Shown piece by piece: positions 27,836-63,787 of a stretch of DNA of 64,000 bases. Origin of the DNA: Shimia isoporae (GTDB lineage: Bacteria > Pseudomonadota > Alphaproteobacteria > Rhodobacterales > Rhodobacteraceae); assembly GCF_004346865.1 (NCBI RefSeq), contig NZ_SMGR01000003.1, positions 372,001-436,000 on the forward strand, in the 5' to 3' direction. Under the pieces are notes generated by a model. The model was given only the letters and a program-made list of their open reading frames with translations. It ran no database searches and was not told the DNA's origin. Each line of letters starts with the position of its first letter. Positions within the stretch are counted from its first letter, which is position 1. Both the position numbers and the translations under genes were made by a program.

Positions 27836-27879
27836 TGGCACCGACGTAATACCGACGTTTTGCAGACGCTTTGCAGACA
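27836..27879 (-). repeat. 44-bp element of four 11-bp units, copy A
   Basis: On the minus strand the units are TGTCTGCAAAG; CGTCTGCAAAA; CGTCGGTATTA; CGTCGGTGCCA. The YGTC cores recur at exactly 11 bases (plus positions of GAC: 27843, 27854, 27865, 27876). A related element lies at 63744-63787 on the plus strand, sharing an 18-base identical core. Both are between convergent genes. Confidence 0.75.
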
Positions 27880-27921
27880 CTCGATTCGCGCCCAAAACGC
27901 CAAGGATTAAAGAGCGAGGGA

Positions 27922-27951
27922 AAATCGGGCGGCCTATGCTGCCTGCCGCCC
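27922..27951 (-). terminator. Possible terminator after the enoyl-CoA hydratase gene
   Basis: Seven-base-pair stem GGGCGGC/GCCGCCC (27927-27933 with 27945-27951), 11-base loop, followed on the minus strand by GATTTTCCC; the T tract is short. Confidence 0.5.
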
Positions 27952-27962
27952 GCTCGGTACAT

Positions 27963-28580
27963 TCATGACCCGTTGCACAACGTTTTGATGCCGGTCGCGA
28001 TCTCCGGCTTGGCGGCCAATGTGTCCGCTGCAATCAATCGTGCCTCGTCCAGCAACTGATCACGCGCAATCAAACGGTCCACCAATCCGAAGGCAAGCGC
28101 TTCATCTGCAGGAATTTTCTGTCCGCCCATCAAGATCAGCTTGGTCCGCGCGGGGCCAATCAATGCGGCCATGCGCGCCGGATCGGACGGTTGCGGCAAA
28201 AAGCCAAGCTTCATCACAGGATAAAAGAACTTTGCGTCCGGCACCGAAATACGAATGTCACACGCCAGCGCCATTCCCATTGCCCCGCCCGCCAAAGTCC
28301 CGTTTAGCGCCGCAATGCTCAGCCCCGGCAGCGCCGCTACAGCACCTGACAACCGCTCCCAGACATCGCTGGTCGCAAGCCCCGCGCGCGCCTCTTCAAG
28401 ATCAGCGCCAGCCGAGAAAACCTTTCCAGTTCCTGTGATTACAAGGCCCCGTGCCTCCCGAGCCGCCTCGGCAATGTCTGCCAACTCGCTCAACATCGCA
28501 TAGGTTAGGGAGTTGGCCTTGTCGGGGCGGTTGATCGTGACAATCCAGAGCCCCGACGGTTCTTTGATCAGGTCGATCAT
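27963..28580 (-). CDS. Enoyl-CoA hydratase/isomerase family protein
   Basis: 205 residues of crotonase fold, shorter than the usual ~260 because the C-terminal trimerisation helices are reduced. Contains the CoA-binding and oxyanion segments: ITGTGKVFSAGADLEEARAG and ALNGTLAGGAMGMALACDIRI (oxyanion-hole glycines). An acidic residue in the VMKLGFLPQPSD region may be catalytic, but the typical Glu of hydratases is not obvious, so isomerase or other crotonase chemistry is possible. Overlaps the SDR gene by four bases (ATGA), forming a two-gene unit. Confidence 0.85.
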   Translation of the reverse strand: MIDLIKEPSGLWIVTINRPDKANSLTYAMLSELADIAEAAREARGLVITGTGKVFSAGADLEEARAGLATSDVWERLSGAVAALPGLSIAALNGTLAGGAMGMALACDIRISVPDAKFFYPVMKLGFLPQPSDPARMAALIGPARTKLILMGGQKIPADEALAFGLVDRLIARDQLLDEARLIAADTLAAKPEIATGIKTLCNGS

Positions 28581-29329
28581 ATAAGGCCGACCTTGCGGCG
28601 AATGTCTTCATCTCTCAGCGAGATTTCATCCCCCAGCCAATCATCAGCCGCGCTGGAGCACATCCAAAGCAGGCACTTCGCAGGCCATTCCGGCGGGATG
28701 TGATCCGTCCATTCCAGCTTGGACACAGGATTGATCCCGCTGGCTTTGATTTCCCTCTGCATTTGGGTCGCCACCGTGCCTGGGCTCAAACCGATGGCAC
28801 GAATGCCTTTTTCGCCAGCTTCTTTATGAACACAGCGCGTCAGCATGTTCACCGCGGCCTTGGACGCGCAATAATGGCTCCAGGCCTCCACCGGCCCATG
28901 AGCTGCACCTGAACTGATGGTGAGGATTGAGCCGCCGCCCGCCTGTTCCATCATCGGCATGACCGCACGCATCCCGTGATACACGCCTTTCAGATTGATA
29001 TCGATCACCTGTCCCCAATCGCTGGGATCCGACTGATCCAGATGAGAGATTGGCTCCACAACCCCTGCGTTATTGATGAGCACATCAACTCCGCCAAACT
29101 TGTCAACCGCCGCGGCAACTGCGGCTTCAACCTGCGCGTAGTCAGCAACATCGCAAGCCACCGCTAGCGCCGTATCACCGATTTCTTCGGCAATCGCATC
29201 AATCGCTGATCCGCTCCGCGCGGTCAGAACCACGTTGGCCCCCGCTGCCGCGAACGCGCGCGCCGCGCTTTCCCCAATTCCCCGGCTCGCGCCAGTGATC
29301 ATGACAGTTTTTCCAGAAACATCAGACAT
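28577..29329 (-). CDS. Short-chain dehydrogenase/reductase
   Basis: 250 residues, classical SDR. Cofactor motif TGASRGIG (12-19), NNAG (87-90 region), catalytic serine in TISSG (S139/S140), and YxxxK with Y153 and K157 in HYCASKAAV. It probably reduces or oxidises a 3-oxo/3-hydroxyacyl or similar alcohol with NADP(H), since an arginine follows the glycine motif (TARSG). Coupled with the downstream crotonase gene, suggesting a fatty-acid or acyl-CoA side pathway. Confidence 0.9.
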   Translation of the reverse strand: MSDVSGKTVMITGASRGIGESAARAFAAAGANVVLTARSGSAIDAIAEEIGDTALAVACDVADYAQVEAAVAAAVDKFGGVDVLINNAGVVEPISHLDQSDPSDWGQVIDINLKGVYHGMRAVMPMMEQAGGGSILTISSGAAHGPVEAWSHYCASKAAVNMLTRCVHKEAGEKGIRAIGLSPGTVATQMQREIKASGINPVSKLEWTDHIPPEWPAKCLLWMCSSAADDWLGDEISLRDEDIRRKVGLI

Positions 29330-29457
29330 ATCGCTCTCCCGCCTTGCCGTTTGCCCTGTGCTACTGCGCCAGGCGCGATTGGTCCAGTCTTTCGACTTGA
29401 CGACACGCCGCCTTAGACGGACTCTGTCGCGGACCTGTTCCAGTAAGGATTATTCAG

Positions 29458-30960
29458 ATGCGCATTTATCTCACTTCACGACTACTCGCTGGCTCGACAG
29501 CCATTGCCCTCTGCAGCGGGCCCGTCTTCGCCGACATCACGGCTCAAGATGCCTGGTCCAATTGGCGCGCGTATATGGAAGAATTCGGCTACGAAATTCA
29601 GGCCACGGAAGAAGCGGGAGCCGGATCTCTAGCGATCAAGGATCTGGTCGCCACAATGGACATGCCCGAGGAGAGCGGGCAGGCACAGGTCAACATGTCG
29701 GAGATGGTTTTCACCGAAAACGGTGAAGGAGCTGTCTCGATCACGATTGCAGACAGCGTCCCTTTCAGCTTCAGCATGGACGACGGCGATGAGCAGGTCA
29801 CTGCCAACATCATGATGACCCACGCGGGCCTCAGCACGATTGCCTCGGGCAACCCGGATGAGATCACATACGCCTATGGCGCTGAAAACGTGACGATGGC
29901 ACTGCAGGACCTGGTCGTTAATGGCGAGACCATTTCCGATTTCAGCGGTGAAATCGCCGTAAATGGTATCGACGGAACTACCCAATTCTCGCTGGGCGAG
30001 ACAATGACTTCCAAAGACAGCATGAGCGCCGAGCAACTCTCCGTGATGATCAAAGGCGTCGACCCTGACACCGGCGACAACGTGGACTTCGCGATGACCT
30101 TGGCTGGCCTGAATGGCACAAGTGAAGGCACAATGCCGCTCGGCAGCTTCACCAGCAACCCCAGCGCCATGTTCGCGGACAGTCTCGACCTGGTCGCAGA
30201 TTTCACGATGCAAGCAGCGCAAATCTCCGCGGCCTTCGAAGACGAAGAAGGCCCAGGTCAGCTCAATCTTACAACCGGTCCCGGGGCCGTTGACGTTGAG
30301 ATGACGGATGAACTCATGTCCTATGGCGGCAAAATAACCGACGTCGCAGCCTCAGTGGCTGCGCCGGACATTCCCCTTCCGATCGATGTAACTTTCGGCG
30401 AACTCGGATATGATTTTGCTGTTCCGCTAAAGGCATCAGAGGAAGCACAGGACTTCAACCTTGGTCTTAACTTTACGGATATCGGATTGTCTGAGTTTAT
30501 CTGGAACTTGTTCGATCCGGGCGCGATCCTACCGAGGGATGCGGCAACTCTGGTTCTCGGCCTTTCTGGCAAGGCAACCGTTTTCCAAGACCTTGTGACA
30601 CTTGACGAAAACATGTCCGAAGCGCCTGGCGAGTTGAACGCGTTGTCTTTGGACGAGCTGCAACTCAGCGCAGCAGGCGCAGATGTCTCCGGAACAGGAA
30701 GTTTCACTTTCGACAACACCGATCTGGTGTCGTTTGACGGGCTGCCACGTCCCGAAGGTGCCATCGATGTCAAGCTCAAAGGGATCAACGGCCTGATCGA
30801 CAAATTGATCCAAATGGGCTTGCTGCCCGAGGAGCAGGCTATGCCCGCGCGTATGATGCTCGGCATGTTCTCGGTTCCGGTTGGAGAAGACGAGCTGACG
30901 TCCCGCATCGAAATAAACGAGGCCGGACATGTCTTGGCCAACGGACAGCGCCTAAAATAA
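29458..30960 (+). CDS. DUF2125 family exported protein
   Basis: 500 residues with signal peptide MRIYLTSRLLAGSTAIALCSGPVFA. The body is a long run of amphipathic beta strands, rich in Thr/Asp/Glu, as in the DUF2125 family of Alphaproteobacteria, with ITAQDAWSNWRAYMEEFGYEIQATEEAG at the start and SRIEINEAGHVLANGQRLK at the end. Probably periplasmic or outer-membrane-facing; function unknown. The fold resembles lipid-channel/AsmA-type envelope proteins only loosely. Single gene with a strong terminator 22 bases after its stop. Confidence 0.85.
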   Translation: MRIYLTSRLLAGSTAIALCSGPVFADITAQDAWSNWRAYMEEFGYEIQATEEAGAGSLAIKDLVATMDMPEESGQAQVNMSEMVFTENGEGAVSITIADSVPFSFSMDDGDEQVTANIMMTHAGLSTIASGNPDEITYAYGAENVTMALQDLVVNGETISDFSGEIAVNGIDGTTQFSLGETMTSKDSMSAEQLSVMIKGVDPDTGDNVDFAMTLAGLNGTSEGTMPLGSFTSNPSAMFADSLDLVADFTMQAAQISAAFEDEEGPGQLNLTTGPGAVDVEMTDELMSYGGKITDVAASVAAPDIPLPIDVTFGELGYDFAVPLKASEEAQDFNLGLNFTDIGLSEFIWNLFDPGAILPRDAATLVLGLSGKATVFQDLVTLDENMSEAPGELNALSLDELQLSAAGADVSGTGSFTFDNTDLVSFDGLPRPEGAIDVKLKGINGLIDKLIQMGLLPEEQAMPARMMLGMFSVPVGEDELTSRIEINEAGHVLANGQRLK

Positions 30961-30982
30961 TCTTCGATTGAAACAACGATCC

Positions 30983-31011
30983 GGAGGCCGCCATGAGCGG
31001 CCTCCTTTTTT
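30983..31011 (+). terminator. Intrinsic terminator after the DUF2125 gene
   Basis: Perfect nine-base-pair stem GGAGGCCGC/GCGGCCTCC (30983-30991 with 30997-31005), five-base loop, six Ts. Confidence 0.92.
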
Positions 31012-31075
31012 GCTGGCGCCTTGCACCGGACCTTCCAGCGGTCTAACTCAGTTGAAACACCGAAACGAGGACACA

Positions 31076-32422
31076 ATGGCCCAAACTCCCGAAGCCCTGA
31101 CCAACCAGCTTTTGGACGCCGCAAAAGTCGCGGGAGCAGAAGCATGCGACGCTGTTGTGGTCGTAGGCACATCGTTGTCCATCGAGGTGCGCGAAGGCAC
31201 ATTGGAACAGGCTGAGCGCGCCGAGGGACTGGACCTAGGACTCCGTGTCCTTGTCGGAAAACGACAGGCCAACGTTTCGATCTCGGACGCTCGACCCGAC
31301 GCCATTCGGGAAATGGCTGAACGCGCCGTGGCCATGGCGAAGGAAGCTCCCGAAGATCCGTATGTGGGCTTGGCCGACCCGGGCCAGTTGGCGGCGGAAA
31401 GGGATGCAGGTTGCCTGGAGCTTTCGGACCCTTCCGCGGAACCTGACCCCTCGATGTTGCAGTCGGACGCACTTGCAACCGAAGCTGCGGCAAAGGCCGT
31501 TAATGGGGTCACCCAAGTGCAATCCGCCACGGCAGGTTATTCAGCCAACGATGTCTGGATAGCCGCCAGCAACGGCTTTTCCGGCGGATACCGACGCACC
31601 AGCCGTGGCACCTATTGTACTGCAATCGCAGGCAGTGGCGACGGTATGGAGCGCGACTATGACGGTGACAGCCGCATCTTTGCGTCTGACATGCGCGACC
31701 CCGCCGACATTGGTCAATCTGCCGGCGAACGGGCCGTGGGCCGCCTGCACGCGCGCCAACCAAAAACCGGTGCATTTCCTGTTCTGTTTGACGAACGAAT
31801 TTCCAGTTCGCTTCTCGGCCACCTTTTGGCCGCCGCGAACGGCGCGACAGTTGCAAGGGGATCAGGTTGGCTACGCGAAAAACTCGGGGAACAGGTTTTG
31901 CCGACCACGCTTTCTGTAATCGAAGATCCACACCGTCCGCGTGTCACCGGCTCTCGCATGTTCGATGCAGAGGGTCTGCCGACCCAACGCCGGGCAATCG
32001 TGGAAAACGGCGTTTTGACAGGTTGGACATTGGATCTCGCAAACGCGCGCAAGCTTGGCCTGAGCAGCACGGCGAACGCTGCACGCGGCGTATCAGGGCC
32101 ACCCTCTCCCTCCAATTGGAACGTCGCCTTGACGCAGGGAGAAAAGTCTCGAGACGCTTTGATCAAGGAAATGGGCACAGGCCTTTTGGTTACGAGCCTG
32201 ATTGGCTCAACCATCAATCCTAACACCGGTGACTACTCCCGTGGTGCGGCTGGCTTTTGGGTGGAAAACGGAGAACTGACGCACGCAATCAACGAATGTA
32301 CGATTGCTGGCAATCTGCACGATATGATGCGAACTCTTGTACCCGCCAACGACGCGCGCCAGCACCTGTCGCGACCGGTTCCATCGCTGCTGGTCGAAGG
32401 ACTCACACTTGCCGGATCCTGA
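31076..32422 (+). CDS. pmbA: TldD/PmbA (TldE) family metalloprotease-related protein
   Basis: 448 residues from the ATG at 31076 (ACGAGGA upstream). Matches PmbA/TldE: N-terminal LEQAERAEGLDLGLRVLVGKRQANVS, AMAKEAPEDPYVGLAD, and the C-terminal domain with GTGLLVTSLIGSTINPNTGDYSRGAAGFWVENGELTHAI. The HEXXH-type zinc site belongs to TldD; TldE subunits such as this lack it, and I see none here. With TldD it degrades or matures peptides (microcin B17, CcdA in E. coli). No tldD is in the window. Confidence 0.92.
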   Translation: MAQTPEALTNQLLDAAKVAGAEACDAVVVVGTSLSIEVREGTLEQAERAEGLDLGLRVLVGKRQANVSISDARPDAIREMAERAVAMAKEAPEDPYVGLADPGQLAAERDAGCLELSDPSAEPDPSMLQSDALATEAAAKAVNGVTQVQSATAGYSANDVWIAASNGFSGGYRRTSRGTYCTAIAGSGDGMERDYDGDSRIFASDMRDPADIGQSAGERAVGRLHARQPKTGAFPVLFDERISSSLLGHLLAAANGATVARGSGWLREKLGEQVLPTTLSVIEDPHRPRVTGSRMFDAEGLPTQRRAIVENGVLTGWTLDLANARKLGLSSTANAARGVSGPPSPSNWNVALTQGEKSRDALIKEMGTGLLVTSLIGSTINPNTGDYSRGAAGFWVENGELTHAINECTIAGNLHDMMRTLVPANDARQHLSRPVPSLLVEGLTLAGS

Positions 32423-33197
32423 TCTGAAGCTTCTGCTCGACGCCGCGGAGGAAGCCGGGCGCATCGCAACCCGCTACACCGGCTCCGAAGCAGAAACCTG
32501 GCACAAGCCAGACGGTGCAGGCCCCGTGACGGAGGCGGACCTCGCCGTCAACGATATGCTGGAAGCCACCTTGCGAGCAGCGCGTCCGGACTATGGTTGG
32601 CTCAGCGAGGAAAGCCACGATGGACCTGAGCGCCTCGAGGCAGCGCGTTGCTTTATTATCGACCCCATTGACGGTACCCGCAGCTTCATCGATGGCTCCA
32701 ACACGTGGGCGCACTCGCTCGCAATTGCAGAACATGGCAAAGTCACTGCCGCGGTGGTCTTCCTACCTTTGCGCGACCGAATGTACGCTGCGGCGCATGG
32801 GGCCGGCGCTACCCTGAACGGCACTCCGATCGCAGCTTCCCAACGAGCCGAAATTTGGGACGCCAACGTCTTGGCGGCACGACCCGTCATGCATTCGGAT
32901 CTCTGGCGCGCAAAAGCTCCAGGGTTCAAACTTGGCTACCGCCCCTCGTTGGCATACCGCCTCGCTCTTGTGGCTCAAGGCCGATTTGACGCAATGCTCA
33001 CTCTTCGCCCGACATGGGAATGGGATATTGCCGCGGGTGATTTGATTTTGCGCGAAGCTGGCGCGGCAGTTTCTGATCGAATGGCCGAGCCGCTCACTTT
33101 CAACAAAGCCGACCCGCGACTAAATGGCGTTGTAGCCGGAGGCAGCGCGTTGCATCGGCAAATCTGCGATGCGCTCGCTCCTGTTAACTCACTTTAA
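32409..33197 (+). CDS. Inositol monophosphatase family phosphatase (CysQ-like)
   Basis: 262 residues from a TTG at 32409, which has AAGGA seven bases upstream and overlaps the pmbA stop by 14 bases; the longer frame has no homology. Metal-binding motifs include the first glutamate in WLSEES and IIDPIDGTRSFIDG, and the second aspartate lies in TWEWDIAAGDLILREAGA. The family hydrolyses sugar phosphates or 3'-phosphoadenosine 5'-phosphate; alphaproteobacterial members next to pmbA are often called CysQ. Substrate is not decidable here. Confidence 0.85.
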   Translation: MPDPDLKLLLDAAEEAGRIATRYTGSEAETWHKPDGAGPVTEADLAVNDMLEATLRAARPDYGWLSEESHDGPERLEAARCFIIDPIDGTRSFIDGSNTWAHSLAIAEHGKVTAAVVFLPLRDRMYAAAHGAGATLNGTPIAASQRAEIWDANVLAARPVMHSDLWRAKAPGFKLGYRPSLAYRLALVAQGRFDAMLTLRPTWEWDIAAGDLILREAGAAVSDRMAEPLTFNKADPRLNGVVAGGSALHRQICDALAPVNSL

Positions 33198-33298
33198 CCA
33201 CTTGCCCCGATAGTTGAAACTGCATCAGGTCAGGCCTTGAGGCCCGTCGCCATCGCCTTTAGTTTGCGCGCAACGCAGCATCTCAAAGGAGATTGACG

Positions 33299-33541
33299 AT
33301 GGCGCAACGCCTGCACCTTGTATTCGGCGGCGAATTGATCGACCCGACAAAGACCGCTTTCAAAGACGTGGACGACATCCACGTTGTCGGTATTTTCCCC
33401 GACTACCAGTCGGCCTATGATGCGTGGAAAGCAGAAGCGCAGCGCACGGTAGACAACGCACACATGCGCTACTTCATAGCGCATCTTCATCGCCTGCGCG
33501 ACGAAGAGCTCGCCGCCTCCTCCACCGAAGAACTCGGCTAA
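33299..33541 (+). CDS. DUF4170 small protein
   Basis: 80 residues from the ATG at 33299, with AAAGGAG upstream. Sequence AQRLHLVFGGELIDPTKTAF and VVGIFPDYQSAYDAWKAEAQRTVDNAHMRYFIAHLHRL fit DUF4170, a small alphaproteobacterial family. It is regularly found directly before the Kdo transferase gene, as here (eight bases away), so a role in lipopolysaccharide core synthesis or its regulation is plausible but unproven. Confidence 0.88.
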   Translation: MAQRLHLVFGGELIDPTKTAFKDVDDIHVVGIFPDYQSAYDAWKAEAQRTVDNAHMRYFIAHLHRLRDEELAASSTEELG

Positions 33542-33549
33542 GGCCACCC

Positions 33550-34770
33550 ATGCCGCGCTCGCTCGGACTGGCAGCATATCTGGCCTTTGCACGCCGCCAG
33601 CCGCGCAAGCCGGTACCATTGGCGGCCGAACGACCCAAAGGCGAGCTGATCTGGCTACACTGTTCCGACCCCTCCCGCGCCCGAAGCCTTGCTCAACTTG
33701 GCCTTCGTCTGGCGAATCTGCGGGACGAGACCCAAAAGGTTCTGATCACCACTGCGTCCGGCACCCCGCCAGCCCAGAACCTTCCGGACGGGGCAATTTG
33801 GCAGGAGTGCCCAACTGAAAACCCCGACGACATCGAGGCTTTCCTCCACCATTGGCGACCGGACATGCTTATCTGGCTTGGCAAGCTACTGCGCCCGGCC
33901 CTGACAGTTGCAAGTTCCAAGCGCATGCCTTGCATGTTGGTGGAACCCAATGCACCAACTCTGGAAAACAAACGCTGGCGCGTAGGCCCTGAACCAATTC
34001 GGGCAACCTTGGCGCATTTCAACGTAATTCTGGCCGACACCAAGGCCATTGTCGCACGCTTCCGCTCGATGTTGCCCGAGGACGTCGAGGTCCACCCGGG
34101 AGGCCTCCTGACCGAAGAACCCCCTGCGTTGGTACACGTGGAAAGCGACCTTGAGGAGCTTCGTGATGCTTTGAAGGGACGCCCTGTTTGGTTGGCCGCA
34201 CGCGTGCATCCAGACGAGCTTCCGGCTATTCTCGCTGCGTTCCGTTCGGCGCTTCGGCTGTCACATCGGTTGCTGCTTGTCATCGTCCCGGATAGGGCCG
34301 ACCACGCAACGGCCATCAGGGATCAGGTGCATGCACAGGATTGGCGCGTAGCGAATTGGGACGACGGGGCATTTCCCGAGGAAGATACCCAAATTCTCCT
34401 AACGGAGAGTCCTGGTGAATTGGGGCTGTGGTACCGGATCGCGCCGGTTAGCTTTGTTGGGTCTTCGCTGATTTCCGGCCACGGCGGTCGCGATCCATTG
34501 GAACCTGCTGCGCTCGGGTCTGCCGTTCTCTATGGGCCGTCCGTACGTAACCATCTGGACAGTTACACGCGGCTGGCCAACGCAGGAGCCGCGCGCATCG
34601 TCCGTGATGCCGACAGCCTCGCCACTGCGCTCATCCAGCTGGCAGCGCCCGACCAACTGGCAGCCATGGCCCACGCCGGTTGGCAGGTCATTTCCGAAAC
34701 GGCCGAAGTGACCGACGCCATCGTCGCGCACGCTCAACGGCTTCTGGACGGTGACGAGGTCGTAGGATGA
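33550..34770 (+). CDS. waaA: 3-deoxy-D-manno-octulosonic acid transferase
   Basis: 406 residues from the ATG at 33550. GT-B (GT30) enzyme adding Kdo to lipid A. It is shorter and more divergent than E. coli WaaA (425 aa), with the N-terminal membrane anchor reduced to [13 protein letters not shown]. Recognisable parts: an acceptor-side [47 protein letters not shown], and the nucleotide-binding end with [29 protein letters not shown]. Overlaps lpxK by four bases; DUF4170-waaA-lpxK form one operon. Confidence 0.88.
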
Positions 34771-35771: not shown

Positions 35772-35792
35772 GTCACTCGGGCAACTGTTTTT
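35753..35792 (+). terminator. Intrinsic terminator overlapping the lpxK stop
   Basis: Ten-base-pair stem GTTGCCCGAG/CTCGGGCAAC (35753-35762 with 35776-35785), then TGTTTTTATT. The left arm codes for the last residues of LpxK and the stop codon (35769-35771) is in the loop. The right arm reaches to within a few bases of the convergent dsbA-like stop. Confidence 0.85.
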
Positions 35793-36462: not shown

Positions 36463-36978
36463 TTAGAAACCTTTCTTCGAGTTTTTGTTCTTGTCGATAA
36501 CATTCTCGGCCAAACGCGCCAGCGCCTGCCGCAAATCCGCATCCCTCACTGGCGCTGCAACTTCCGCTGCTTCTCGCACCACATCCGGGTCTTTGAGGGC
36601 ATCTGTGGATTCCTTTTTCGGAGCAAATTGGGCCTGGCCTTCGGCAAACCCTGACGCGGCAGTCTGCGTAATACGCAAATGCGCAATAGCGTTGTAACCA
36701 TAGGCCGCGTTCACCTTGCCCCGTAGTTTTTCTTTTTGCATCTCTAGCATCGGCGCTTGGGCACCGGTGGTAAGCACCGTGAGTGTGGCCCCGAAACCTG
36801 ATCGCCCGTACTTCACATCAACGGGACGACACACGCTGGCCATATCTTGCCCTACAATTTCAGACCAATGCGTCAGCACGCGCGTAACCGCAAAACCACG
36901 GCTTTCGCCCGCGCTGCGGATACGGTCCCGCAACAGGGTCGAAGTGCGTTTGAAGCCTTTCGTGGTGGCGCGTCGCAT
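36463..36978 (-). CDS. DUF721 / DciA-like protein
   Basis: 171 residues. The first ~110 residues fit DUF721: VLTHWSEIVGQDMASVCRPVDVKYG, LTVLTTGAQAPMLEMQKEKLRGKVNAAYGYNAIAHLRI. DciA proteins load the replicative helicase DnaB in bacteria lacking DnaC. The C-terminal ~60 residues are charged and less conserved. Divergent from mutY (87 bases), the normal Rhodobacteraceae arrangement DsbA-DUF721-mutY. Confidence 0.85.
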   Translation of the reverse strand: MRRATTKGFKRTSTLLRDRIRSAGESRGFAVTRVLTHWSEIVGQDMASVCRPVDVKYGRSGFGATLTVLTTGAQAPMLEMQKEKLRGKVNAAYGYNAIAHLRITQTAASGFAEGQAQFAPKKESTDALKDPDVVREAAEVAAPVRDADLRQALARLAENVIDKNKNSKKGF

Positions 36979-55940: not shown

Positions 55941-57358
55941 ACACATCCTTATCCGGCAAGACTGTTATCGATTGGGAGGCTTTCGCCTGCGCCCTTGATC
56001 CAGTGGAAACCATTTCAGAAACCTCGACGGTAAAACGCCGTTCCCGCGACTTCTTCTGGTATTCACCGATTTTGAATGCACAACTGAAGCGCAGTTTTGG
56101 TGATTTGGTGGCGTTGCCCCAATCTATTGATGAAATCGCGCAGTGTTTGCGCGTGGCGCATGCTTTTGACGCGCCGATTACTATTCGCGGTGGCGGAACC
56201 GGAAACTATGGCCAGGCCGTTCCGATGGACGGCGGACTCATTTTGGACATGACGGCGTTTAGCGACATTCTCGACATCGGAGATGGCTTTGTTACCGTTC
56301 AGGCTGGCGCCAACATCAAGGAAGTGAACGAGGCCTTGAACGCCAAAGGATGGGAGCTTGCGATTTTCCCTTCCACTCAGGACATAGCGACAATCGGTGG
56401 TTTTGTAGGCGGTGGAAGCTCTGGCATAGGCTCTGTCGCAAACGGCATGTTGCGTGACCCCGGAAATATCCTGTCCTTGCGTGCCATGTCTGTCACTGCT
56501 GCTCCCGAGGAACACCTTTTCGAAGGAGATGCCATCAACCACATGCACCATGCTTGGGGTCTCAATGGCGTGATCACAGAGGTGACGTTACGCACTGTGC
56601 CACACCGTGACTGGATCGGCTGTATGGCGACTTTCGACAGTTATGAGGAGTGCTTTTCGGCAGGTTATGCTCTCGCACAAAGTGCTGAAGTTGGCCGCAA
56701 ACTTGTTTCGACGGTGGATGCGCGCATCTGTGCTTACTTTCCAAAACTGGAGGGGCACATTCGCCCGGAGAAACACCTGATGGTCTCCTTGGTGCCGCGC
56801 GAAGATCTTGATGCATACCGGTCGTTGGTTGCCATGCAATCAGGATCGGTCGACCTCGCGATGAGCGAAGCAGAGCTCGCGGCCGCCAAACTGCCCCATG
56901 TGTTTGAATTCTCCTATAACCACACCACACTTCAAGTGCTCAAGGCCGACCGGTCTGCCACTTACCTTCAAGTCGGAGTGCCCACGCCGCCAGACCCTGC
57001 CAAAGTCGCGGCGCTCGCTCCAAAACTGGGCGATGACGTTTGGATGCACCACGAATTCGCGCTTCTCAACAAAGAGATTGTGTCTTTTGATCTTCCGATA
57101 ATCTGGTTCACCGACGAACCCCGCTTGCGGGAAATTGAAGCGATCTACGAGAAGGATGGTTTCGCGGTCTACGATGCCCACATCTGTATGGTCGAAGGCG
57201 GAGGCCTAAAGAACGCCGATTACCGTCATCTCGCTTGGAAAAAGCGGATGGATCCAAAGGGGCTATTGAACTCTGCCAAATCGCGCGAGTGGAAAAACGT
57301 CGCACACTTGAGTCCAGAGCAGATCGAAGAACTCATTCCGGAGGATGCCGATGTCTAA
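55937..57358 (+). CDS. FAD-binding (PCMH-type) oxidoreductase
   Basis: 473 residues. FAD-binding domain of the vanillyl-alcohol-oxidase type (~50-220): ITIRGGGTGNYGQAVPMDGGLILDM and IATIGGFVGGGSSGIGSVANGMLRD, with the pyrophosphate loop. The substrate domain at the C-terminal half is divergent. Such enzymes oxidise hydroxy acids or amine/alcohol side chains with FAD. Coupled to the deaminase upstream and overlapping the TauD gene by eight bases, so probably acts in the same pathway. Confidence 0.85.
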   Translation: MNTSLSGKTVIDWEAFACALDPVETISETSTVKRRSRDFFWYSPILNAQLKRSFGDLVALPQSIDEIAQCLRVAHAFDAPITIRGGGTGNYGQAVPMDGGLILDMTAFSDILDIGDGFVTVQAGANIKEVNEALNAKGWELAIFPSTQDIATIGGFVGGGSSGIGSVANGMLRDPGNILSLRAMSVTAAPEEHLFEGDAINHMHHAWGLNGVITEVTLRTVPHRDWIGCMATFDSYEECFSAGYALAQSAEVGRKLVSTVDARICAYFPKLEGHIRPEKHLMVSLVPREDLDAYRSLVAMQSGSVDLAMSEAELAAAKLPHVFEFSYNHTTLQVLKADRSATYLQVGVPTPPDPAKVAALAPKLGDDVWMHHEFALLNKEIVSFDLPIIWFTDEPRLREIEAIYEKDGFAVYDAHICMVEGGGLKNADYRHLAWKKRMDPKGLLNSAKSREWKNVAHLSPEQIEELIPEDADV

Positions 57359-58235
57359 CTTCGACACATCACCGCTTTCACCCGAGTTCGGCGTTGAGAT
57401 TCACGACCTCCAGCTTGCCGACGTGAAAGCCAATTCACTGTACCCCGAGATACGCGCACTCTTCGAGGAGCACTCTGCGTTGCTGTTTCGCGGTCAGTCC
57501 CTGAGTGACGAACAACATATGGCTTTGGCACGTCTGTTCGGGAGAATCGAAGATCGCAATGCCGACGAACGAAAACCCGACGAAGCCTTCCAGGTGCCCG
57601 AAGTGTCGAATATTCGACAGGACGGGTCGGTAACGGACCAGATGGACCTGCACACGCTCAACCTACAATCTAACATGCTCTGGCACTCAGACAGCACCTT
57701 CATGCCCGTACCGGCGCTGACCAACATTCTTGTGGGTCGCGTTGTGACGTCCAGTGGCGGCGCCACCGAACTTGCCTCTACGCGAGCAGCTTGGCGCGAG
57801 ATGCCTGAGAAACTCGCAGAGAAGATCCGCGGCCGGGCTATCTGGCACCACTATGCCACCTCCCGCGCGAAGATTTCAGAGACACTCGCAAAGCTACCCA
57901 TGTTCCACAAATGGCCAGCACAAAAATGGAAAGCGGTCTTGACGAATCCGCTTAACCACACGGAAAGTTTATATATTGCCTCGCACGCTTACGCCGTGGA
58001 AGGCTATACTAAGGAGGAAAGCCAGACGCTGCTGGAAGAGCTGACTGCGTTTTGCACGCAGGATCGCTTCACCTACAGCCACCGCTGGCAAGAGGGGGAC
58101 GTTCTGATCTGGGACCAACGCGCCGTTATGCACAGGGGAACGCCCTGGCCGTGGCATGAACCTCGAAAACTGACCAGCCTCTGCGTCTCCATAGGCCCCG
58201 AAGACGGGCTGAATGAGATGCGACCCAAGGAATAA
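57351..58235 (+). CDS. TauD/TfdA family 2-oxoglutarate-dependent dioxygenase
   Basis: 294 residues from the ATG at 57351 (GGAGG six bases upstream; ATG 57345 also in frame). Fe(II) ligands H112 and D114 in MLWHSDSTFMP and the distal histidine in AVMHRGTPWPW; the 2-oxoglutarate arginine lies in HEPRKLTSLCVS. Overlaps the FAD oxidase gene by eight bases. Hydroxylates or dealkylates a small organic acid, sulfonate or phenoxy compound; the cluster context suggests a nitrogen-containing substrate. Confidence 0.9.
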   Translation: MSNFDTSPLSPEFGVEIHDLQLADVKANSLYPEIRALFEEHSALLFRGQSLSDEQHMALARLFGRIEDRNADERKPDEAFQVPEVSNIRQDGSVTDQMDLHTLNLQSNMLWHSDSTFMPVPALTNILVGRVVTSSGGATELASTRAAWREMPEKLAEKIRGRAIWHHYATSRAKISETLAKLPMFHKWPAQKWKAVLTNPLNHTESLYIASHAYAVEGYTKEESQTLLEELTAFCTQDRFTYSHRWQEGDVLIWDQRAVMHRGTPWPWHEPRKLTSLCVSIGPEDGLNEMRPKE

Positions 58236-58322
58236 CAAACCGGCGGGTTACCACTGCTCGCCAAAACAAGCGCAGCAACGTCTGCATCCCGGGAGTACCC
58301 GACTACAACAGAGAGGAAGCAA

Positions 58323-59984
58323 ATGACCTTTAAGACACGTACTGGCAAGCCGATGCCAAAGGTTATCGTCGACCAGGCCCACAAGGTGGGCGAGGACGAA
58401 GTGAACCGCCGCGAATTCCTCGCGCTTGCAAGCGCCTTTGGCGCGACCGCAGCCACCGCTTATGGCATGCTGGGCATGGCGGCACCCGCCTATGCGGACG
58501 GGCACGCCAAAGACGGAGGCACCGTGCGCATCCAAATGGAAGTGCGCGCCCTCAAAGACCCGCGCACCTATGACTGGTCGCAGATCGCCAACTTCTCGCG
58601 CGGCTGGCTTGAGTATCTCGTAGACTATGGCCGCGATGGGACCTTTGGTCCTGGGCTTCTGGAAAGCTGGGAGATTTCCGAAGATGCGAAGACCTATACT
58701 CTTAACGTCCGTAAGGGTGTGAAGTGGAACAATGGCGACGACTTCACCGCAGAGGACGTTGCGCGCAACATCGCCGGTTGGTGTGAAAAAGAAGTTGAAG
58801 GCAACTCGATGGCCGGACGTTTCGCGACGCTTATCGACGAAGCCACTGGCAAGGCGGTCGACGGCGGCATCGAAGTGGTCGACAGCCATACCGTAAAGCT
58901 GAACCTGCCGAAGCCGGACATCTCGCTGATTCCGGGAATGGCCGACTATCCAGCCGCAATCGTGCACAGCTCGCACAACCCGGACGACATGCTGTCCAAC
59001 CCTGTTGGTACAGGTCCATACCTGCCTGAAAGCCTCGAGGTCGGTGTCAAAGCTGTTCTCAAGCGCAACGACGGGCACACATGGTGGAACGCCGGTAACG
59101 GCGCTTGGATGGAGTCCATCGAGTACATCGACTACGGCACCGATCCTGCGGCATGGGTTGCCGCTGCGGAGTCTGAGGAAGTCGACATGCTCTATTCCGT
59201 GGACGGCGAGTTCATCGACCTCGTGTCGTCGCTTGATGGCTGGGTAGAAAACGAGATTGTGACCGCAGCGACCATCGTCATCCGCCCGAACCAACTGGCA
59301 GAAGTCGACGGAAAACAGCCATATGCAGACCCCAAAGTCCGCAAAGCAATCGCGATGGCGGTAGACAACAACGTTCTGCTGGAACTCGGATACGACGGCC
59401 GAGGCCAGGTCGCAGAAAACCACCACGTTGGTCCGATGCATCCGGAATACGCACCTCTGCCCGCTCTCAAGCATGATCCGGCTGGCGCAAAGGCGCTTCT
59501 GGACGAAGCAGGCATGGGCGATTTCGAGATGGAAATCATCTCGATTGACGATGCATGGCGCAAGAATACAACCGACGCTGTCGCGGCTCAGCTGCGCGAC
59601 GCTGGTTTCAACGTCAAGCGGACCATCCTGCCAGGTTCCACCTTCTGGAATGACTGGGCGAAGTATCCATTTAGCTCCACCAACTGGAACCACCGCCCCC
59701 TCGGCGTTCAGATTTGGGCGCTTGCCTATCGTTCCGGCGAAGCTTGGAACGAGTTCGGATACTCTAACCCCGAGTTCGACGCGAACCTTGAGATGGCGCT
59801 GGCAACAGCCGACATCGAGAAACGTCGCGAGCTGATGGCAAAAGGTGAGGCGATGCTCCAAGAAGACGCTGTCACCATTCAGCCTTACTGGCGTTCGCTC
59901 TACAACCACACGGTTGAAGGCCTCGAAGGTGGTGCTCACCACATCTCGTTCGAGATCCACCCAGCCAAGCTGCACTGGACCTGA
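58323..59984 (+). CDS. Tat-exported ABC transporter substrate-binding protein (SBP_bac_5)
   Basis: 553 residues with GAGAGGAAG before the ATG. Twin-arginine signal VNRREFLALASAFGATAATA (RR at 29-30) after an unusually long basic N-region. Oligopeptide/nickel-type binding protein: LLESWEISEDAKTYTLNVRKGVKWNNGDDFTAEDVA, VVDSHTVKLNLPKPD, NPVGTGPYLPES, DPKVRKAIAMAVDN and the C-terminal AKGEAMLQEDAVTIQPYW. Binds the compound fed to the operon enzymes, probably as the cytoplasmic folded/Tat-dependent form. No permease or ATPase genes follow. Confidence 0.9.
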   Translation: MTFKTRTGKPMPKVIVDQAHKVGEDEVNRREFLALASAFGATAATAYGMLGMAAPAYADGHAKDGGTVRIQMEVRALKDPRTYDWSQIANFSRGWLEYLVDYGRDGTFGPGLLESWEISEDAKTYTLNVRKGVKWNNGDDFTAEDVARNIAGWCEKEVEGNSMAGRFATLIDEATGKAVDGGIEVVDSHTVKLNLPKPDISLIPGMADYPAAIVHSSHNPDDMLSNPVGTGPYLPESLEVGVKAVLKRNDGHTWWNAGNGAWMESIEYIDYGTDPAAWVAAAESEEVDMLYSVDGEFIDLVSSLDGWVENEIVTAATIVIRPNQLAEVDGKQPYADPKVRKAIAMAVDNNVLLELGYDGRGQVAENHHVGPMHPEYAPLPALKHDPAGAKALLDEAGMGDFEMEIISIDDAWRKNTTDAVAAQLRDAGFNVKRTILPGSTFWNDWAKYPFSSTNWNHRPLGVQIWALAYRSGEAWNEFGYSNPEFDANLEMALATADIEKRRELMAKGEAMLQEDAVTIQPYWRSLYNHTVEGLEGGAHHISFEIHPAKLHWT

Positions 59985-60004
59985 TCCGGTCAGCGCACGG
60001 AACT

Positions 60005-60031
60005 CGGGCCGCCTTCGGGCGGCCCGTTTTT
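60005..60031 (+). terminator. Intrinsic terminator closing the catabolic operon
   Basis: Perfect nine-base-pair stem CGGGCCGCC/GGCGGCCCG (60005-60013 with 60018-60026), stable TTCG tetraloop, five Ts. It ends the operon right after the binding-protein gene, confirming that no permease genes follow in the transcript. Confidence 0.93.
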
Positions 60032-60047
60032 ATGATGGGGAACCACA

Positions 60048-60530
60048 ATGGACATGCTGCTCTTTGCGCAAACAGTCTCGCTCCTGTTGCCAACGCTCTG
60101 GCTGACGACTGGCGTGCGGGACAATATACTTTATCCGCCGGTCAACGAAGTGTTCACCGCACAGGTTCTCACAATGGAGCGGATGAAAGAAGATTATCCT
60201 GAGGAATATGCCCGGGTTGCGCACAGAGCCATCCATAACCGAGCATGGCAGAAGGGACTGTTCCGCTTGATCGTCGCCGCCGAGGTAACAACCGTAGTGG
60301 TCATGTGGGTCGGCGTTATTCTTCTTGCTTTGGCTACCCTTGGTATCGCTCTGCCTTCAATGGCACGCGGGGCCGCATTGATGGGCGCTCTTATGTTTAC
60401 CGGCGTCTGGGCAATGTTCACCGTGGTTGGCAATCATTTCAGCTATTGGTTCTGCCACGAAGGCGCACAGAACACGCATTTTCAACTGCTGCTCTGGGGC
60501 CTCGGCAATATGATCTTGCTGAACCTTTGA
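60048..60530 (+). CDS. DUF2165-like small integral membrane protein
   Basis: 160 residues with about four hydrophobic segments: LFAQTVSLLLPTLWLTTG, LIVAAEVTTVVVMWVGVILLALATLGI, GAALMGALMFTGVWAMFTVVG and LLLWGLGNMILLNL. The NILYPPVNEVFTAQVLTM and GNHFSYWFCHEG segments fit DUF2165 proteins, usually described as predicted small integral membrane proteins. Function unknown. It follows the operon terminator by 16 bases, so it needs its own promoter. Convergent with znuA. Confidence 0.78.
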   Translation: MDMLLFAQTVSLLLPTLWLTTGVRDNILYPPVNEVFTAQVLTMERMKEDYPEEYARVAHRAIHNRAWQKGLFRLIVAAEVTTVVVMWVGVILLALATLGIALPSMARGAALMGALMFTGVWAMFTVVGNHFSYWFCHEGAQNTHFQLLLWGLGNMILLNL

Positions 60531-60546
60531 CGGTTCCGCAAATCCC

Positions 60547-61617
60547 TTAGTGATCGTGGTCCAGACAAGCCGCGAAGTTATCCGCTAGATTGCTCAGAAC
60601 CGCATAATACAGACCCGGCCCAATTTCCTGGGTGGCGCCATGAGGATCAACCTCAGCCGTCTTGATATCCAAGCCTTCGGAAACAGAGGCGACAATCTCG
60701 TCAGGGAATTGCGGTTCGCTGAAGACACACTCGATTTTGTTGTCACTTAGAGTAGTCCGCACTTCGCGGAGCCGCGCAGCGGAGGCCGACGAAGCATCTC
60801 CAACCCGGATAGCGCCGGCAGCCTTAAGGTCAAACCGTTTTTCAAAATACTGGTAGGCATCGTGGAAAACGACAAAGCGGCTGGCGTGGACCGGTTCCAA
60901 TTTCGCCGCTATGTCCGCTTCGAGCACATCAAGTTCCGCCTGCGCACTCTTTGCGTTCTCCGCATATGTCGCGGCATTGTCAGGGTCGATTTCAGAAAGT
61001 TCGGCGGCAATCAAACCTAGCCAAACACGGGCGTTTTCAGGGTCCAACCAAGCATGGCTGTCGGTGCCGGAATGATCGTGATGATCATGGTCATCATGCC
61101 CAGCGTGATCTTCGTCACCATGTTCTTCATGTTCATCGTGACCGGCATGTTCTTCATCACCGTGATCATCGTGATCATCATGACCGGCATGCTCCTCGTC
61201 ACCGTGATCGTCGTGTTCAGCATGATCGTCATGGCCATGATCATCGTCGGATGCGACCTCAAAGTCGTCCGAAGAACGATAGTCGTGAGCCACGGTGCCT
61301 TCTTGGTTCAATAGCGCCATGTGGTGCGCATCACCGGCCAGAGACTCGATTGTTTTTTCAAGCTGAGGGGTCAGTTTTGGCCCAATCCAGACGACCAGAT
61401 CCGCGTCTTGCAGGGAACGGGCTTCGGACGGACGCAGTGCATAGCCGTGCGGTGAGACACCCGGCTTGATCAGTAAATCAGGGGTTCCGACACCTTCCAT
61501 GACCTTTGAAACAAGGCTATGGACCGGCGCGATGTCTGTCGTTACACGGGGCGCTTCGGCTTGTGCAGCGATGCCGGCACCCAGAAGGGCAACGAAGCTT
61601 GCGGGGAGAATTCTCAT
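60547..61617 (-). CDS. znuA: Zinc ABC transporter substrate-binding protein
   Basis: 356 residues. Signal peptide MRILPASFVALLGAGIAAQA. Zinc ligands from family position: H33 in PVHSLVSKV, H57 in SPHGYALRP, the helical-segment histidine in FVVFHDAYQYFEKRF, and the C-terminal IECVFSEPQFP and EVDPHGA. Between H57 and SHAWLDPEN (H188) lies a His/Asp/Glu-rich loop (residues ~124-183) with ~25 histidines, which in ZnuA proteins captures periplasmic zinc. Part of this loop is a 14-residue tandem repeat. Divergent from zur-znuCB and presumably shares the Zur box. Confidence 0.94.
   Translation of the reverse strand: MRILPASFVALLGAGIAAQAEAPRVTTDIAPVHSLVSKVMEGVGTPDLLIKPGVSPHGYALRPSEARSLQDADLVVWIGPKLTPQLEKTIESLAGDAHHMALLNQEGTVAHDYRSSDDFEVASDDDHGHDDHAEHDDHGDEEHAGHDDHDDHGDEEHAGHDEHEEHGDEDHAGHDDHDHHDHSGTDSHAWLDPENARVWLGLIAAELSEIDPDNAATYAENAKSAQAELDVLEADIAAKLEPVHASRFVVFHDAYQYFEKRFDLKAAGAIRVGDASSASAARLREVRTTLSDNKIECVFSEPQFPDEIVASVSEGLDIKTAEVDPHGATQEIGPGLYYAVLSNLADNFAACLDHDH
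61084..61209 (-). repeat. 42-bp coding tandem repeat in the ZnuA histidine loop
   Basis: Three copies of a 14-residue unit close to DHGDEEHAGHDDHD (residues about 137-178), varying at D/E positions. Expansion or contraction of this repeat would change the number of zinc-binding histidines. On the opposite strand it creates a spurious hydrophobic frame. Confidence 0.75.
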
Positions 61618-61665
61618 CAGGGCACCTTTGTATTAATGTGACGCGATGACTGGCACTAATGAAAA

Positions 61666-61680
61666 TGTTATATTATATCA
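61666..61680. promoter_or_regulatory. Zur box candidate between znuA and zur
   Basis: Fifteen-base imperfect palindrome TGTTATATTATATCA, centred in the 87-base divergent gap. It resembles the alphaproteobacterial Zur consensus with GTTATANNATAAC-like arms. It lies 25 bases before the zur start and 49 bases before the znuA start, able to repress both directions. Confidence 0.75.
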
Positions 61681-61704
61681 AGTCGAAATCTGTCGGAGGT
61701 CCAA

Positions 61705-62178
61705 ATGGATAGTATCGGGTTTGCACAACACGATCACGCTGCCTGTGTAGGCAGCGGCATGCAGGCTGCCGAAGAGGTCTGCGCAGCCAAAGGCTTGCGG
61801 CTGACCAAAGGACGACGGCGCGTGCTGGAAATTCTATTGCAGGAACACCGCGCGATGGGGGCCTATGACATTCTTGGCCTTCTCAGCGAAGAGGGCTTTG
61901 CCGCGCAGCCTCCTGTGGTCTATCGCGCATTGGATTTCCTGACTGAAAATGGCTTTGTGCACAAAATCGAAAAGCTCAACGCATACGTAGCCTGTACTCA
62001 CCCTCAGGATGATCACGCCCCGGTTTTCCTGATTTGTCGGGACTGCGAGACGGTTGCCGAAACAGGCATGTCCATGCGCGCTAGCCTTGGCGCAGTTGCC
62101 AAGGAAATGGGTTTCAAGATCGAAAGCACAGTGGTCGAGGCCGAAGGCCTGTGCCCCTCGTGTCAGCCCGCAACATGA
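61705..62178 (+). CDS. zur: Fur-family zinc uptake regulator Zur
   Basis: 157 residues. Winged helix with LTKGRRRVLEILLQEHRAMGAYDIL and the recognition part PPVVYRALDFLTENGFVHKIE, then the dimerisation domain. The structural zinc cysteines are CRDC and CPSC. Zur, rather than Fur or Irr, is indicated by the znuC and znuB genes in the same operon and by the box upstream. An N-terminal His-rich piece (AQHDHAAC) precedes the usual start of homology. GGAGG precedes the ATG. Overlaps znuC by four bases. Confidence 0.93.
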   Translation: MDSIGFAQHDHAACVGSGMQAAEEVCAAKGLRLTKGRRRVLEILLQEHRAMGAYDILGLLSEEGFAAQPPVVYRALDFLTENGFVHKIEKLNAYVACTHPQDDHAPVFLICRDCETVAETGMSMRASLGAVAKEMGFKIESTVVEAEGLCPSCQPAT

Positions 62179-62930
62179 GGTTGGTCACCATAAAAGACAT
62201 GTCGGTGAAGCTGGGCGCGCATCAGGCTTTGTCTCATGTGGACCTGACCATCGACAAAGGCGAGATTGTCACGATTGTCGGGCCGAACGGCTCGGGCAAG
62301 TCGACCCTGTTGCGCAGCGTGATCGGCGCGATCCGGCCGGACAGCGGGACAGTGCTGAAAGCGGCGGACATGAAAATTGGGTATGTCCCTCAGAGCCTCT
62401 CAATTGATCCCACTCTCCCTTTGACCGCAGGCCGGTTTCTGAGCCTGCCAAATCGGCGTACCAAGATCGCCGCTCTAGCGGCACTTACGCAAGCCGGCGT
62501 CGAAGACATCGCCGATCGGCCAATGTCTGGCCTGAGCGGTGGTCAATTCCAGCGTGTTTTGCTGGCAAGGGCCCTCATGGACGAACCTGATCTCCTTATT
62601 CTGGACGAGCCCACGACAGGTCTCGACCAGCCAGGATCAGCCGATTTCTACACCCAGATCGAGCGGGTACGCCGCGATACAGGCGCTGCAATACTCATGG
62701 TAAGCCACGAGTTGCATGTGGTCATGAGCGCGTCCGATCGCGTGGTCTGTCTCAACGGGCACGTCTGCTGCCACGGTGCACCCGAAGTGGTGGCCTCTGC
62801 TCCGGAATATCGCGCTTTGTTTGGCACAGGCACGCACGGTGCGTTGGCGCTGTACCGCCACGAACATGATCACCATCACCACGATGGGGACGCCTGCGAC
62901 CACGACCATCAGCATCACGAAAGCCACTGA
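62175..62930 (+). CDS. znuC: Zinc ABC transporter ATP-binding protein with His-rich tail
   Basis: 251 residues from the ATG overlapping the zur stop (ATGA). ABC ATPase: Walker A GPNGSGKS, Q-loop YVPQSL, signature LSGGQ, Walker B LLILDEP, switch histidine MVSHEL. The last ~25 residues are extremely His/Asp-rich (RHEHDHHHHDGDACDHDH plus QHHESH), a tail absent from most ZnuC proteins that could bind zinc on the cytoplasmic side. Energises zinc uptake with ZnuA and ZnuB. Confidence 0.95.
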   Translation: MRLVTIKDMSVKLGAHQALSHVDLTIDKGEIVTIVGPNGSGKSTLLRSVIGAIRPDSGTVLKAADMKIGYVPQSLSIDPTLPLTAGRFLSLPNRRTKIAALAALTQAGVEDIADRPMSGLSGGQFQRVLLARALMDEPDLLILDEPTTGLDQPGSADFYTQIERVRRDTGAAILMVSHELHVVMSASDRVVCLNGHVCCHGAPEVVASAPEYRALFGTGTHGALALYRHEHDHHHHDGDACDHDHQHHESH

Positions 62931-62931
62931 T

Positions 62932-63726
62932 ATGTTTGATGATTTTCTGGTGCGCGCGATTTTCGCAGGTATCGGCGTCGCTCTTGCAGCGGCACCGTTG
63001 GGATGCTTCGTCGTCTGGCGTCGCATGGCCTACTTCGGTGATGCAACCGCACACGCCGCAATCCTTGGCGTGGCTTTCTCGCTGGCCTTTGGGCTATCGA
63101 TTTTCATCGGCACGCTCACGGTTGCTCTGGCTATGGCGCTCACCGTCACAACGCTTGCCGGTCGGGGATATGCGATGGACACATTGCTTGGTGTGCTGGC
63201 GCATAGTGCGTTAGCCTTTGGCCTGGTTGCAGTGTCGCTTCAGCAAGGAATTCGCATTGACCCGATGTCGTACCTGTTCGGGGACATCCTCGCCGTGTCA
63301 AAGAGCGACCTTGTCGTAATCTGGCTGGGAGCAATCGGTGTGGTTGCCTTGATGATCTGGCGATGGCAGGGCCTTTTGACGTCTACGCTCAATCCGGATC
63401 TTGCCTATGCCAGCGGCATTGATCCCAAACGCGAGCAACTTGTCCTGACGATCGGACTTGCCGTGGTTGTGGCTGTGGCAATCAAGGTCGTTGGCGCCTT
63501 ACTTATTGGGGCTTTGATTGTGATCCCGGCGGCGGCGACGCGGGCGGTGACACGATCGCCGGAAGCAATGGCAGCCAGTGCGGCACTGGTTGGTGCGGCG
63601 TCGGCCTGCGGAGGCTTGTGGCTCAGCTACACAATGGACACACCCGCGGGCCCATCCATCGTTTGCGTGGCAGCCATGTTCTTCGCCGCAACCAATCTTG
63701 TGGCGAGAATCGGGTTAACACGCTGA
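62932..63726 (+). CDS. znuB: Zinc ABC transporter permease
   Basis: 264 residues from the ATG at 62932, one base after the znuC stop. ABC-3 family permease with eight or so helices, starting FDDFLVRAIFAGIGVALAAAPLGCFVVWRRMAYFGDATAHAAILGVA, where FGDATAH is the family's metal-channel histidine motif, and the coupling region KVVGALLIGALIVIPAAATRAVTRSPEAM. Forms the membrane channel of ZnuABC. Last gene of zur-znuC-znuB. Convergent with the serine hydrolase; no stem-T terminator is visible in the 100-base gap, which instead holds the 44-bp repeat. Confidence 0.94.
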   Translation: MFDDFLVRAIFAGIGVALAAAPLGCFVVWRRMAYFGDATAHAAILGVAFSLAFGLSIFIGTLTVALAMALTVTTLAGRGYAMDTLLGVLAHSALAFGLVAVSLQQGIRIDPMSYLFGDILAVSKSDLVVIWLGAIGVVALMIWRWQGLLTSTLNPDLAYASGIDPKREQLVLTIGLAVVVAVAIKVVGALLIGALIVIPAAATRAVTRSPEAMAASAALVGAASACGGLWLSYTMDTPAGPSIVCVAAMFFAATNLVARIGLTR

Positions 63727-63743
63727 AATCCGGCCGAATTCCC

Positions 63744-63787
63744 TGTCAGTAAAACATCTGCAAAACGTCGGTATCGCATCGGTGTTC
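63744..63787 (+). repeat. 44-bp element of four 11-bp units, copy B
   Basis: Plus-strand units: TGTCAGTAAAA; CATCTGCAAAA; CGTCGGTATCG; CATCGGTGTTC, with the Y-R/G-TC cores at 63744, 63755, 63766 and 63777. By eye 34 of 44 positions equal copy A (27836-27879, minus strand), including an uninterrupted 18-base stretch (63757-63774). It lies between convergent znuB and the serine hydrolase gene. Confidence 0.75.

Follow-up and report, generated by a model that had tools for sequence, protein, structure and literature searches.

Repetitive extragenic palindromic (REP) elements occur as many small intergenic copies whose sequence is specific to the genome, and DNA uptake sequences have lineage dialects. 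FtsK-orienting polar sequences (KOPS) and architecture imparting sequences (AIMS) are 8-bp words in the consulted portions of the sources (PMC2680272, PMC5993296). The portions consulted of two further papers give ArcA sites as two to five direct repeats, mostly 11 bp centre to centre (PMC3798270), and the CtrA site of Dinoroseobacter shibae as TTAAC-N5-GTTAAC (PMC7232146). Here we describe a 44-bp element built from four 11-bp modules, two copies of which lie in a 64,000-nucleotide stretch of the Shimia isoporae genome (the window, meaning the whole stretch that was analysed). Our favoured reading, to which we give about an even chance, is that the element is a polar, chromosome-wide docking site read by a putative protein that makes four head-to-tail contacts.

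Comparison with described systems reveals partial likeness in each case. Similar to KOPS and AIMS, the element is polar along both arms and chromosome-wide, but it is a four-module array of 44 bp, mostly intergenic and present at about 20 copies per Mb, with words that are lineage-specific while the FtsK gamma domain stays near-identical. Its several direct repeats per site, 11 bp centre to centre, recall the sites of ArcA, PhoB and OmpR; winged-helix regulators such as ArcA touch the DNA once at each helical turn, several times in succession and head to tail. The element differs from these sites in that its repeats nearly always number four, it is polar with respect to replication and independent of gene direction, and it is rare in divergent promoter gaps. 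Many small intergenic copies of genome-specific sequence are also a feature of REP elements and their associated RAYT transposases, but the repeats here are direct rather than palindromic, the replication polarity is strong and the Y1_Tnp transposase domain was found in only 1 of 15 element-rich genomes. Lineage-specific words and intergenic placement are shared with DNA uptake sequences, from which the length, modular array, polarity and low density of the element set it apart. For each known family considered, a defining feature either failed or stayed beyond sequence tests, and the element appears to be new.

Copy number, module grammar and replication polarity

The first-pass annotation of the window had reported two elements in opposite orientation, each with four units at exact 11-bp spacing, and both are present as described (Table 1). 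A recount on the two sequences reproduced the reported 34 of 44 identical positions and the common 18-mer, TCTGCAAAACGTCGGTAT. Chance had been judged an improbable source, and the 18-mer with up to three mismatches indeed has 2 matches in the window, where 0.03 would be expected. Across the window's own genome (4.23 Mb in 9 contigs) the same search yields 122 matches versus 19 for the reversed pattern, and a degenerate 40-mer yields 75 versus 1. The outcome that the annotation had considered fatal, a genome with only these two copies, is thus not what was found. A position weight matrix with a threshold of 18 bits identified 87 distinct copies (90 fetched stretches), or about 20 per Mb. The weakest copy scores 27 bits and all others score at least 38; the reversed-sequence control was counted at a lower cut-off, with 53 windows exceeding 14 bits.

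The modules follow a common skeleton (YGTCKGYAWNR) and number four in nearly all copies. An additional module with at least four of five skeleton bases is present in 1 of the 87 copies at the unit 0 position and in 1 at the unit 5 position. Unit 1 mostly reads GTCTGC and unit 4 mostly GTCGGT, and the sixth base of a module is coupled to its A/T tail (C with AAA, T with ATT). Among the 84 copies scoring above 40, exactly one of the middle modules (2 or 3) is in the C state in 61, compared with 43.6 expected (P ~1e-4). The middle modules thus prefer opposite states (C-AAA and T-ATT), as if two of each were wanted. The repeats are direct, not inverted, on inspection of the 87 copies, with no folding run.

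Plotting strand against replication, as the annotation had proposed, revealed that orientation follows the replication strand: it matches the local skew at third codon positions (GC3 skew) in 79 of 87 copies. The leading strand is inferred from GC skew and from parS on contig C4. Orientation also matches the chromosome arm in 66 of 77 copies (ten copies on C4-C7 have no arm assigned), while agreement with the summed direction of local genes is found in 45 of 87. Contig C1 exemplifies this pattern, with 32 of 34 copies before 1.45 Mb on the plus strand and 14 of 17 after it on the minus strand; GC skew on this contig reverses at about 1.4 Mb. That the two window copies face opposite ways is untypical: element 1 agrees with its arm, and element 2 is among the 11 of 77 copies that do not.

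A similar polarity is seen in two other genomes. In G169 the comparison covers the 100 listed places out of 115. Segments of clear skew contain 76 of these, of which 63 agree; the other 24, in mixed or unsampled segments, were left out. When the distance to a sampled stretch is limited to 15 kb, 9 of 9 places in this genome agree, and at a limit of 60 kb 45 of 57 do; the corresponding counts in G282 are 11 of 13 and 20 of 27. On G169 contig C2, at about 1.3-1.5 Mb, GC skew is reversed and several elements are reversed too, perhaps through an inversion carrying both.

Copies are also spaced over-regularly. For the 51 copies on C1 the coefficient of variation is 0.69 versus 0.97 for random placement (P = 0.004), and no pair lies closer than 8 kb, where 7.9 would be expected; five contigs together contain 1 such pair versus 12.6. 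Spacing on C3 is also regular, and the 100 places in G169 have a coefficient of variation of 0.77 (P = 0.004) and 11 close pairs versus 19.9 expected.

With respect to genes, 26 copies lie in convergent gaps, 7 in divergent gaps, 47 in co-directional gaps, 6 inside called open reading frames (ORFs) and 1 at an edge, while the other gaps of the same stretches comprise 38 convergent, 48 divergent and 167 co-directional (convergent versus divergent, P = 0.0009). The counts come from a crude gene caller and are approximate, an alternative version giving 28, 7, 48, 3 and 1. This caller misses a short HNH gene, which files element 1 as co-directional though its gap is convergent, and co-directional copies can still be upstream of a gene. 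The annotation's emphasis on convergent gaps is borne out insofar as 26 of 87 copies lie there and divergent gaps are depleted, but most copies lie elsewhere.

Persistence, distribution and flanking DNA

Copies recur at loci shared among relatives. In five of 24 matched congeners (not all of whose loci reach this gap), the enoyl-CoA hydratase gap in which element 1 lies is also occupied, by a copy that sits just downstream of the gene, points the same way and has largely different flanks. In Shimia aestuarii (stretch L161), too, a copy oriented like element 2 is found at the 3' end of znuB. More generally, a comparison of 114 named stretches with Shimia isoporae identified 26 orthologous pairs of immediate-neighbour genes (at least 45% identity), of which 23 also keep their side and strand relative to the element; a control at shifted rank gave 9 pairs. 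Within 16 copy pairs at shared loci (including one named copy used twice and one weak copy), 275 of 304 skeleton positions and 203 of 336 variable positions are identical; variable positions of unrelated copies are 55% identical. The 40-bp flanks of these pairs are identical at 255 of 640 and 223 of 640 positions in ungapped comparison, and a few pairs keep one similar flank. Sites thus seem to stay in place where most of the neighbouring sequence has been replaced, but continual re-creation of copies would fit this pattern too.

A search of relatives, suggested in the annotation, did locate the element in related genomes, though most genomes have no match. The pattern was found in 23 of 292 Rhodobacterales genomes and a profile built from 66 copies matched 44, in 20 of 112 genera; at the E value used (0.01) about 3 of the 292 would be expected by chance, with no reversed control. 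At least three profile matches are present in 31 genomes and one or two in 13. All eight members of the genus in the 292-genome sample have at least 20 profile matches, two of them using a drifted word. G040 and G070 have only 2 pattern matches each, yet at least 20 profile matches each (82 in G040, with drifted copies), and G105, G132 and G218 have related arrays with CGTATGGCA at their end. A horizontally acquired system, considered on account of the patchy 23 of 292, was dropped as part of the patchiness is word drift. Other families of the class, represented by 187 genomes, gave no match in a test that sees only the GTCGGTA-type word. Of the named stretches, at least 114 in all, 80 have listed titles, which consist of genera that we take to be Rhodobacterales, or of Rhodobacteraceae, Rhodobacterales or Alphaproteobacteria metagenome-assembled genomes.

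Searches of mobile DNA gave few matches. With a typed 51-base query, and at low sensitivity, a plasmid collection gave one match covering 55% of the query and none covering at least 80%, and a phage collection gave no match above 45%. Viral contigs had 0 matches to an exact 39-mer and 1 to the degenerate pattern. This sole viral copy (L302 7479-7507, IMGVR_UViG_3300037791_000022) is near the end of its stretch. Judged by eye, the genes on that stretch are those of a host, and so the contig probably represents host DNA or a mis-bounded provirus.

We also looked for the same layout in other words, sampling six genomes outside the profile's 44 (400 or 200 kb each) for identical 4-mers at i, i+11 and i+22. 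The layout is clear in two of these (G025 and G039), tentative in two (G014 and G035) and unseen in two. G025 has 39 triples at 11 bp versus 4-13 at nine other spacings, and ATGCACAWNCC-like modules form ten arrays there (L353-L372), compared with 0 when the sequence is reversed; 5 of 11 arrays found there by matrix have GTTAA at +57. G039 has 20 triples versus 1-6 and about nine arrays of GTACAGA-like modules (L403-L412). Results are suggestive only for G014 (12 triples versus 2-12; two ATGCACA arrays flanked by GTTAAC or TTAA words, L373-L382) and G035 (12 triples versus 3-14; three GGTGCAC arrays and 6 reversed-control windows). In G073 and G115 (200 kb each) no array emerged from this de novo test, which misses words with little internal repeat. 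The crude caller places 20 of 23 other-word arrays outside ORFs, a count that omits the two weakest of the 11 in G025. Inspection identifies a common register of T-N4-A per 11 bp, filled by CGGT or CTGC, by GCAC and by ACAG. Layout, density and flank word lead us to infer that the other words and the GTCGGTA word may belong to one system.

Additional signals lie in the flanking DNA. A/T-rich tracts occur upstream at about -7, -17 and -28 in the 87 Shimia isoporae copies and at about -7, -17, -28 and -37 in 109 copies from named genomes. In the former set the upstream A/T signal has a Fourier power of 12 at a period of 11.1 bp, where 500 shuffles reach no more than 1.5; in the latter the power is 23 at 9.7 bp, with shuffles reaching no more than 1.1. 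Named genomes also have words enriched at fixed offsets, namely GAATC at -39/-38 and GTTAAC at -30 and +62, the GTTAAC positions being occupied exactly in 15 of 102 copies each. Because these words stand at fixed flank offsets, a complete complex could in some genomes extend over about 110 bp. A GTTAA or TTAAC word is present in a 20-bp upstream window in 38 of 102 named copies, in a 14-bp downstream window in 39 and in both in 25 (background 2%); the Shimia isoporae counts are 12, 7 and 4 of 87. Beyond these words, no consistent longer repeat shared by the two sides was visible by eye. These words resemble the CtrA site and flank a minority of copies, but the four-module core is without TTAA, and no regular full-site match was seen on inspection. 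The same inspection of the four-module core found neither full form of the CtrA site (TTAAC-N5-GTTAAC or TTAA-N7-TTAA).

A putative reader and competing explanations

Under the docking-site reading, a sequence-specific protein would make one contact per helical turn, four head to tail, along one face of the DNA, and the phased upstream A/T tracts would make it possible for about 30-40 bp to be bent or wrapped against it. As the array is asymmetric and follows an order from origin to terminus, the complex formed on it could give direction to a chromosome-long process; segregation, condensation and fork-associated traffic are candidates. Because the four-by-11 layout recurs while the T-N4-A core differs, the specificity of the reader presumably changes along with this 4-bp core. 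We hold with somewhat less than even confidence the wider claim that Rhodobacterales chromosomes carry a directional four-module array every 20-100 kb or so, oriented with replication, with a fixed architecture and a 4-bp word that drifts together with its putative reader. The four-module arrays suggest an unrecognised system for organising chromosomes, and once the reader is known the element may turn out to be one more variant of the polar motifs that organise chromosomes.

Several observations weigh against this reading. No reader protein was found, 11 of 77 copies point against their arm, and neither on C2 nor in G282 does even spacing reach significance. Five modules occur in a small number of arrays (1 of 87 here and, for example, L313 of G208). 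At shared loci skeleton identity (90.5%) does not exceed that of unrelated copies (92.1%), and confinement to chromosomes is at most suggested by the weak plasmid search. Among the other words, polarity is only 7 of 11 in G025; it is undecidable in G039, where GTAC is palindromic (9 of 18 strand readings of nine arrays), and the GTGCAC core of G035 is also palindromic, none of its 3 arrays showing polarity.

The element might instead be a non-autonomous mobile repeat, similar to REP or miniature inverted-repeat transposable elements (about 44 bp long, or as much as about 115 bp if the GTTAAC flanks are included), which inserts at forks with a strand bias and survives where harmless. Insertion into single strands could yield the replication-strand bias, the copies are mostly intergenic and rare in divergent gaps, and roughly one named copy in three shows similarity out to its GTTAAC flanks. 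We nevertheless regard this as unlikely. Copies avoid each other and keep a near-constant module number of four, and the 87 plus 109 copies give no convincing target-site duplication near the core, the outer boundaries near -45 and +80 being outside the scope of this comparison. No neighbouring gene family recurs widely, one cluster spanning 20 loci (taken for ABC ATPases, unannotated) and the others at most 6. The plasmid and phage results, at their low sensitivity, and the host-like viral contig also speak against mobility. A REP/RAYT system was rejected given that Y1_Tnp occurs in 3 of 27 tested genomes, only 1 of them among the 15 element-rich ones (a class that includes G040 and G070, counted by profile). 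The annotation had offered both a multimeric DNA-binding protein and a harmless dispersed repeat; a protein with a chromosome-scale role fits the constancy of four modules, the polarity, the over-regular spacing and the retained core, whereas the harmless repeat fits less well.

Ordinary sites for an OmpR/PhoB-type regulator, with tandem 11-bp direct repeats that act on transcription or insulate gene ends, would account for the geometry, which in the consulted portion of the source equals that of ArcA sites (PMC3798270), and for the 47 copies in co-directional gaps. Such sites would not be expected to ignore gene direction, to be depleted in divergent gaps, to keep a near-constant repeat number or to follow replication, and we consider this explanation quite improbable. 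Different words per genome, intergenic placement and many copies could also indicate a lineage-specific uptake or exchange word, used in competence or by gene transfer agents; its 44 bp in four modules, density, polarity and even spacing make this very doubtful. KOPS-type sites read by FtsK share the orientation on the G-rich, presumably leading, strand, but the site is 44 bp rather than 8 bp. In addition, each of the 27 genomes has one near-identical FtsK gamma domain, although they include at least two with clearly different other words (G025 and G039) and perhaps a third (G035). By this indirect test FtsK, which is known to read polar sites, is unlikely to be the reader here, and we see hardly any prospect for the KOPS-type explanation. 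The FtsK gamma domain of Shimia isoporae is encoded at C3:371605-371787 (minus strand), immediately left of the window start at C3:372001. KfrA was likewise rejected as reader, with KfrA_N in 2 of 27 genomes (G107 and G039) and in none of the 15 element-rich ones.

Because placement and polarity oppose ordinary gene regulation and FtsK is unlikely, we propose a putative protein that docks on the chromosome in a directional manner. Among the open-access papers surveyed none appears to describe the four-module element, most subscription papers being outside the scope of that search. Should the docking-site reading prove right, species of a large bacterial order would label their chromosomes with a signal that is long, directional and evenly spaced. 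To our knowledge, no known reader explains such a signal, whether FtsK, which was tested above, or MatP, ParB, Noc or SlmA. As the words vary by lineage while the layout stays, the reader could be sought as a conserved DNA-binding protein whose recognition helix covaries with them. Sources of chromosome direction other than KOPS would then become testable in marine laboratory strains.

The two elements of the window and their neighbours

Features of the two loci are collected in Table 1. The neighbouring genes agree with the annotation's description of both gaps as convergent. The A/T tracts are a signal across copies that a single copy, such as the flank of element 1, cannot show. Both words in the upstream flank of element 2 fall within the end of znuB.

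Table 1. Elements, flanks and adjacent genes in the window (window positions)
Feature	Positions	Strand	Remarks
Element 1, four 11-bp modules	27836-27879	minus	Position weight matrix score 66.7, second highest of 87
Element 1, unit 1	27869-27879	minus	
Element 1, unit 2	27858-27868	minus	
Element 1, unit 3	27847-27857	minus	
Element 1, unit 4	27836-27846	minus	
Upstream flank of element 1	27880-27919	minus	Region where the population of copies has helically phased A/T tracts
HNH-like gene, left of element 1	27463-27792	plus	Pfam HNH 20.4 bits, just below cut-off 21.4
Enoyl-CoA hydratase gene, right of element 1	27963-28580	minus	Pfam
Element 2, four 11-bp modules	63744-63787	plus	Points against local replication polarity
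Upstream flank of element 2	63704-63743	plus	GAATC 63707-63711; GTTAAC 63714-63719 (offset -30)
znuB-type ABC-3 permease gene, left of element 2	62923-63726	plus	Pfam
Beta-lactamase-family (serine hydrolase) gene 3' end, right of element 2	63827-64000	minus	Fragment, below Pfam cut-off

An Rfam scan at gathering scores matched neither of the two sites. Elsewhere in the window, two tandem SorX small RNA genes (Rfam RF02784) lie at 9885-9956 and 10038-10107 on the minus strand, well above the gathering score.

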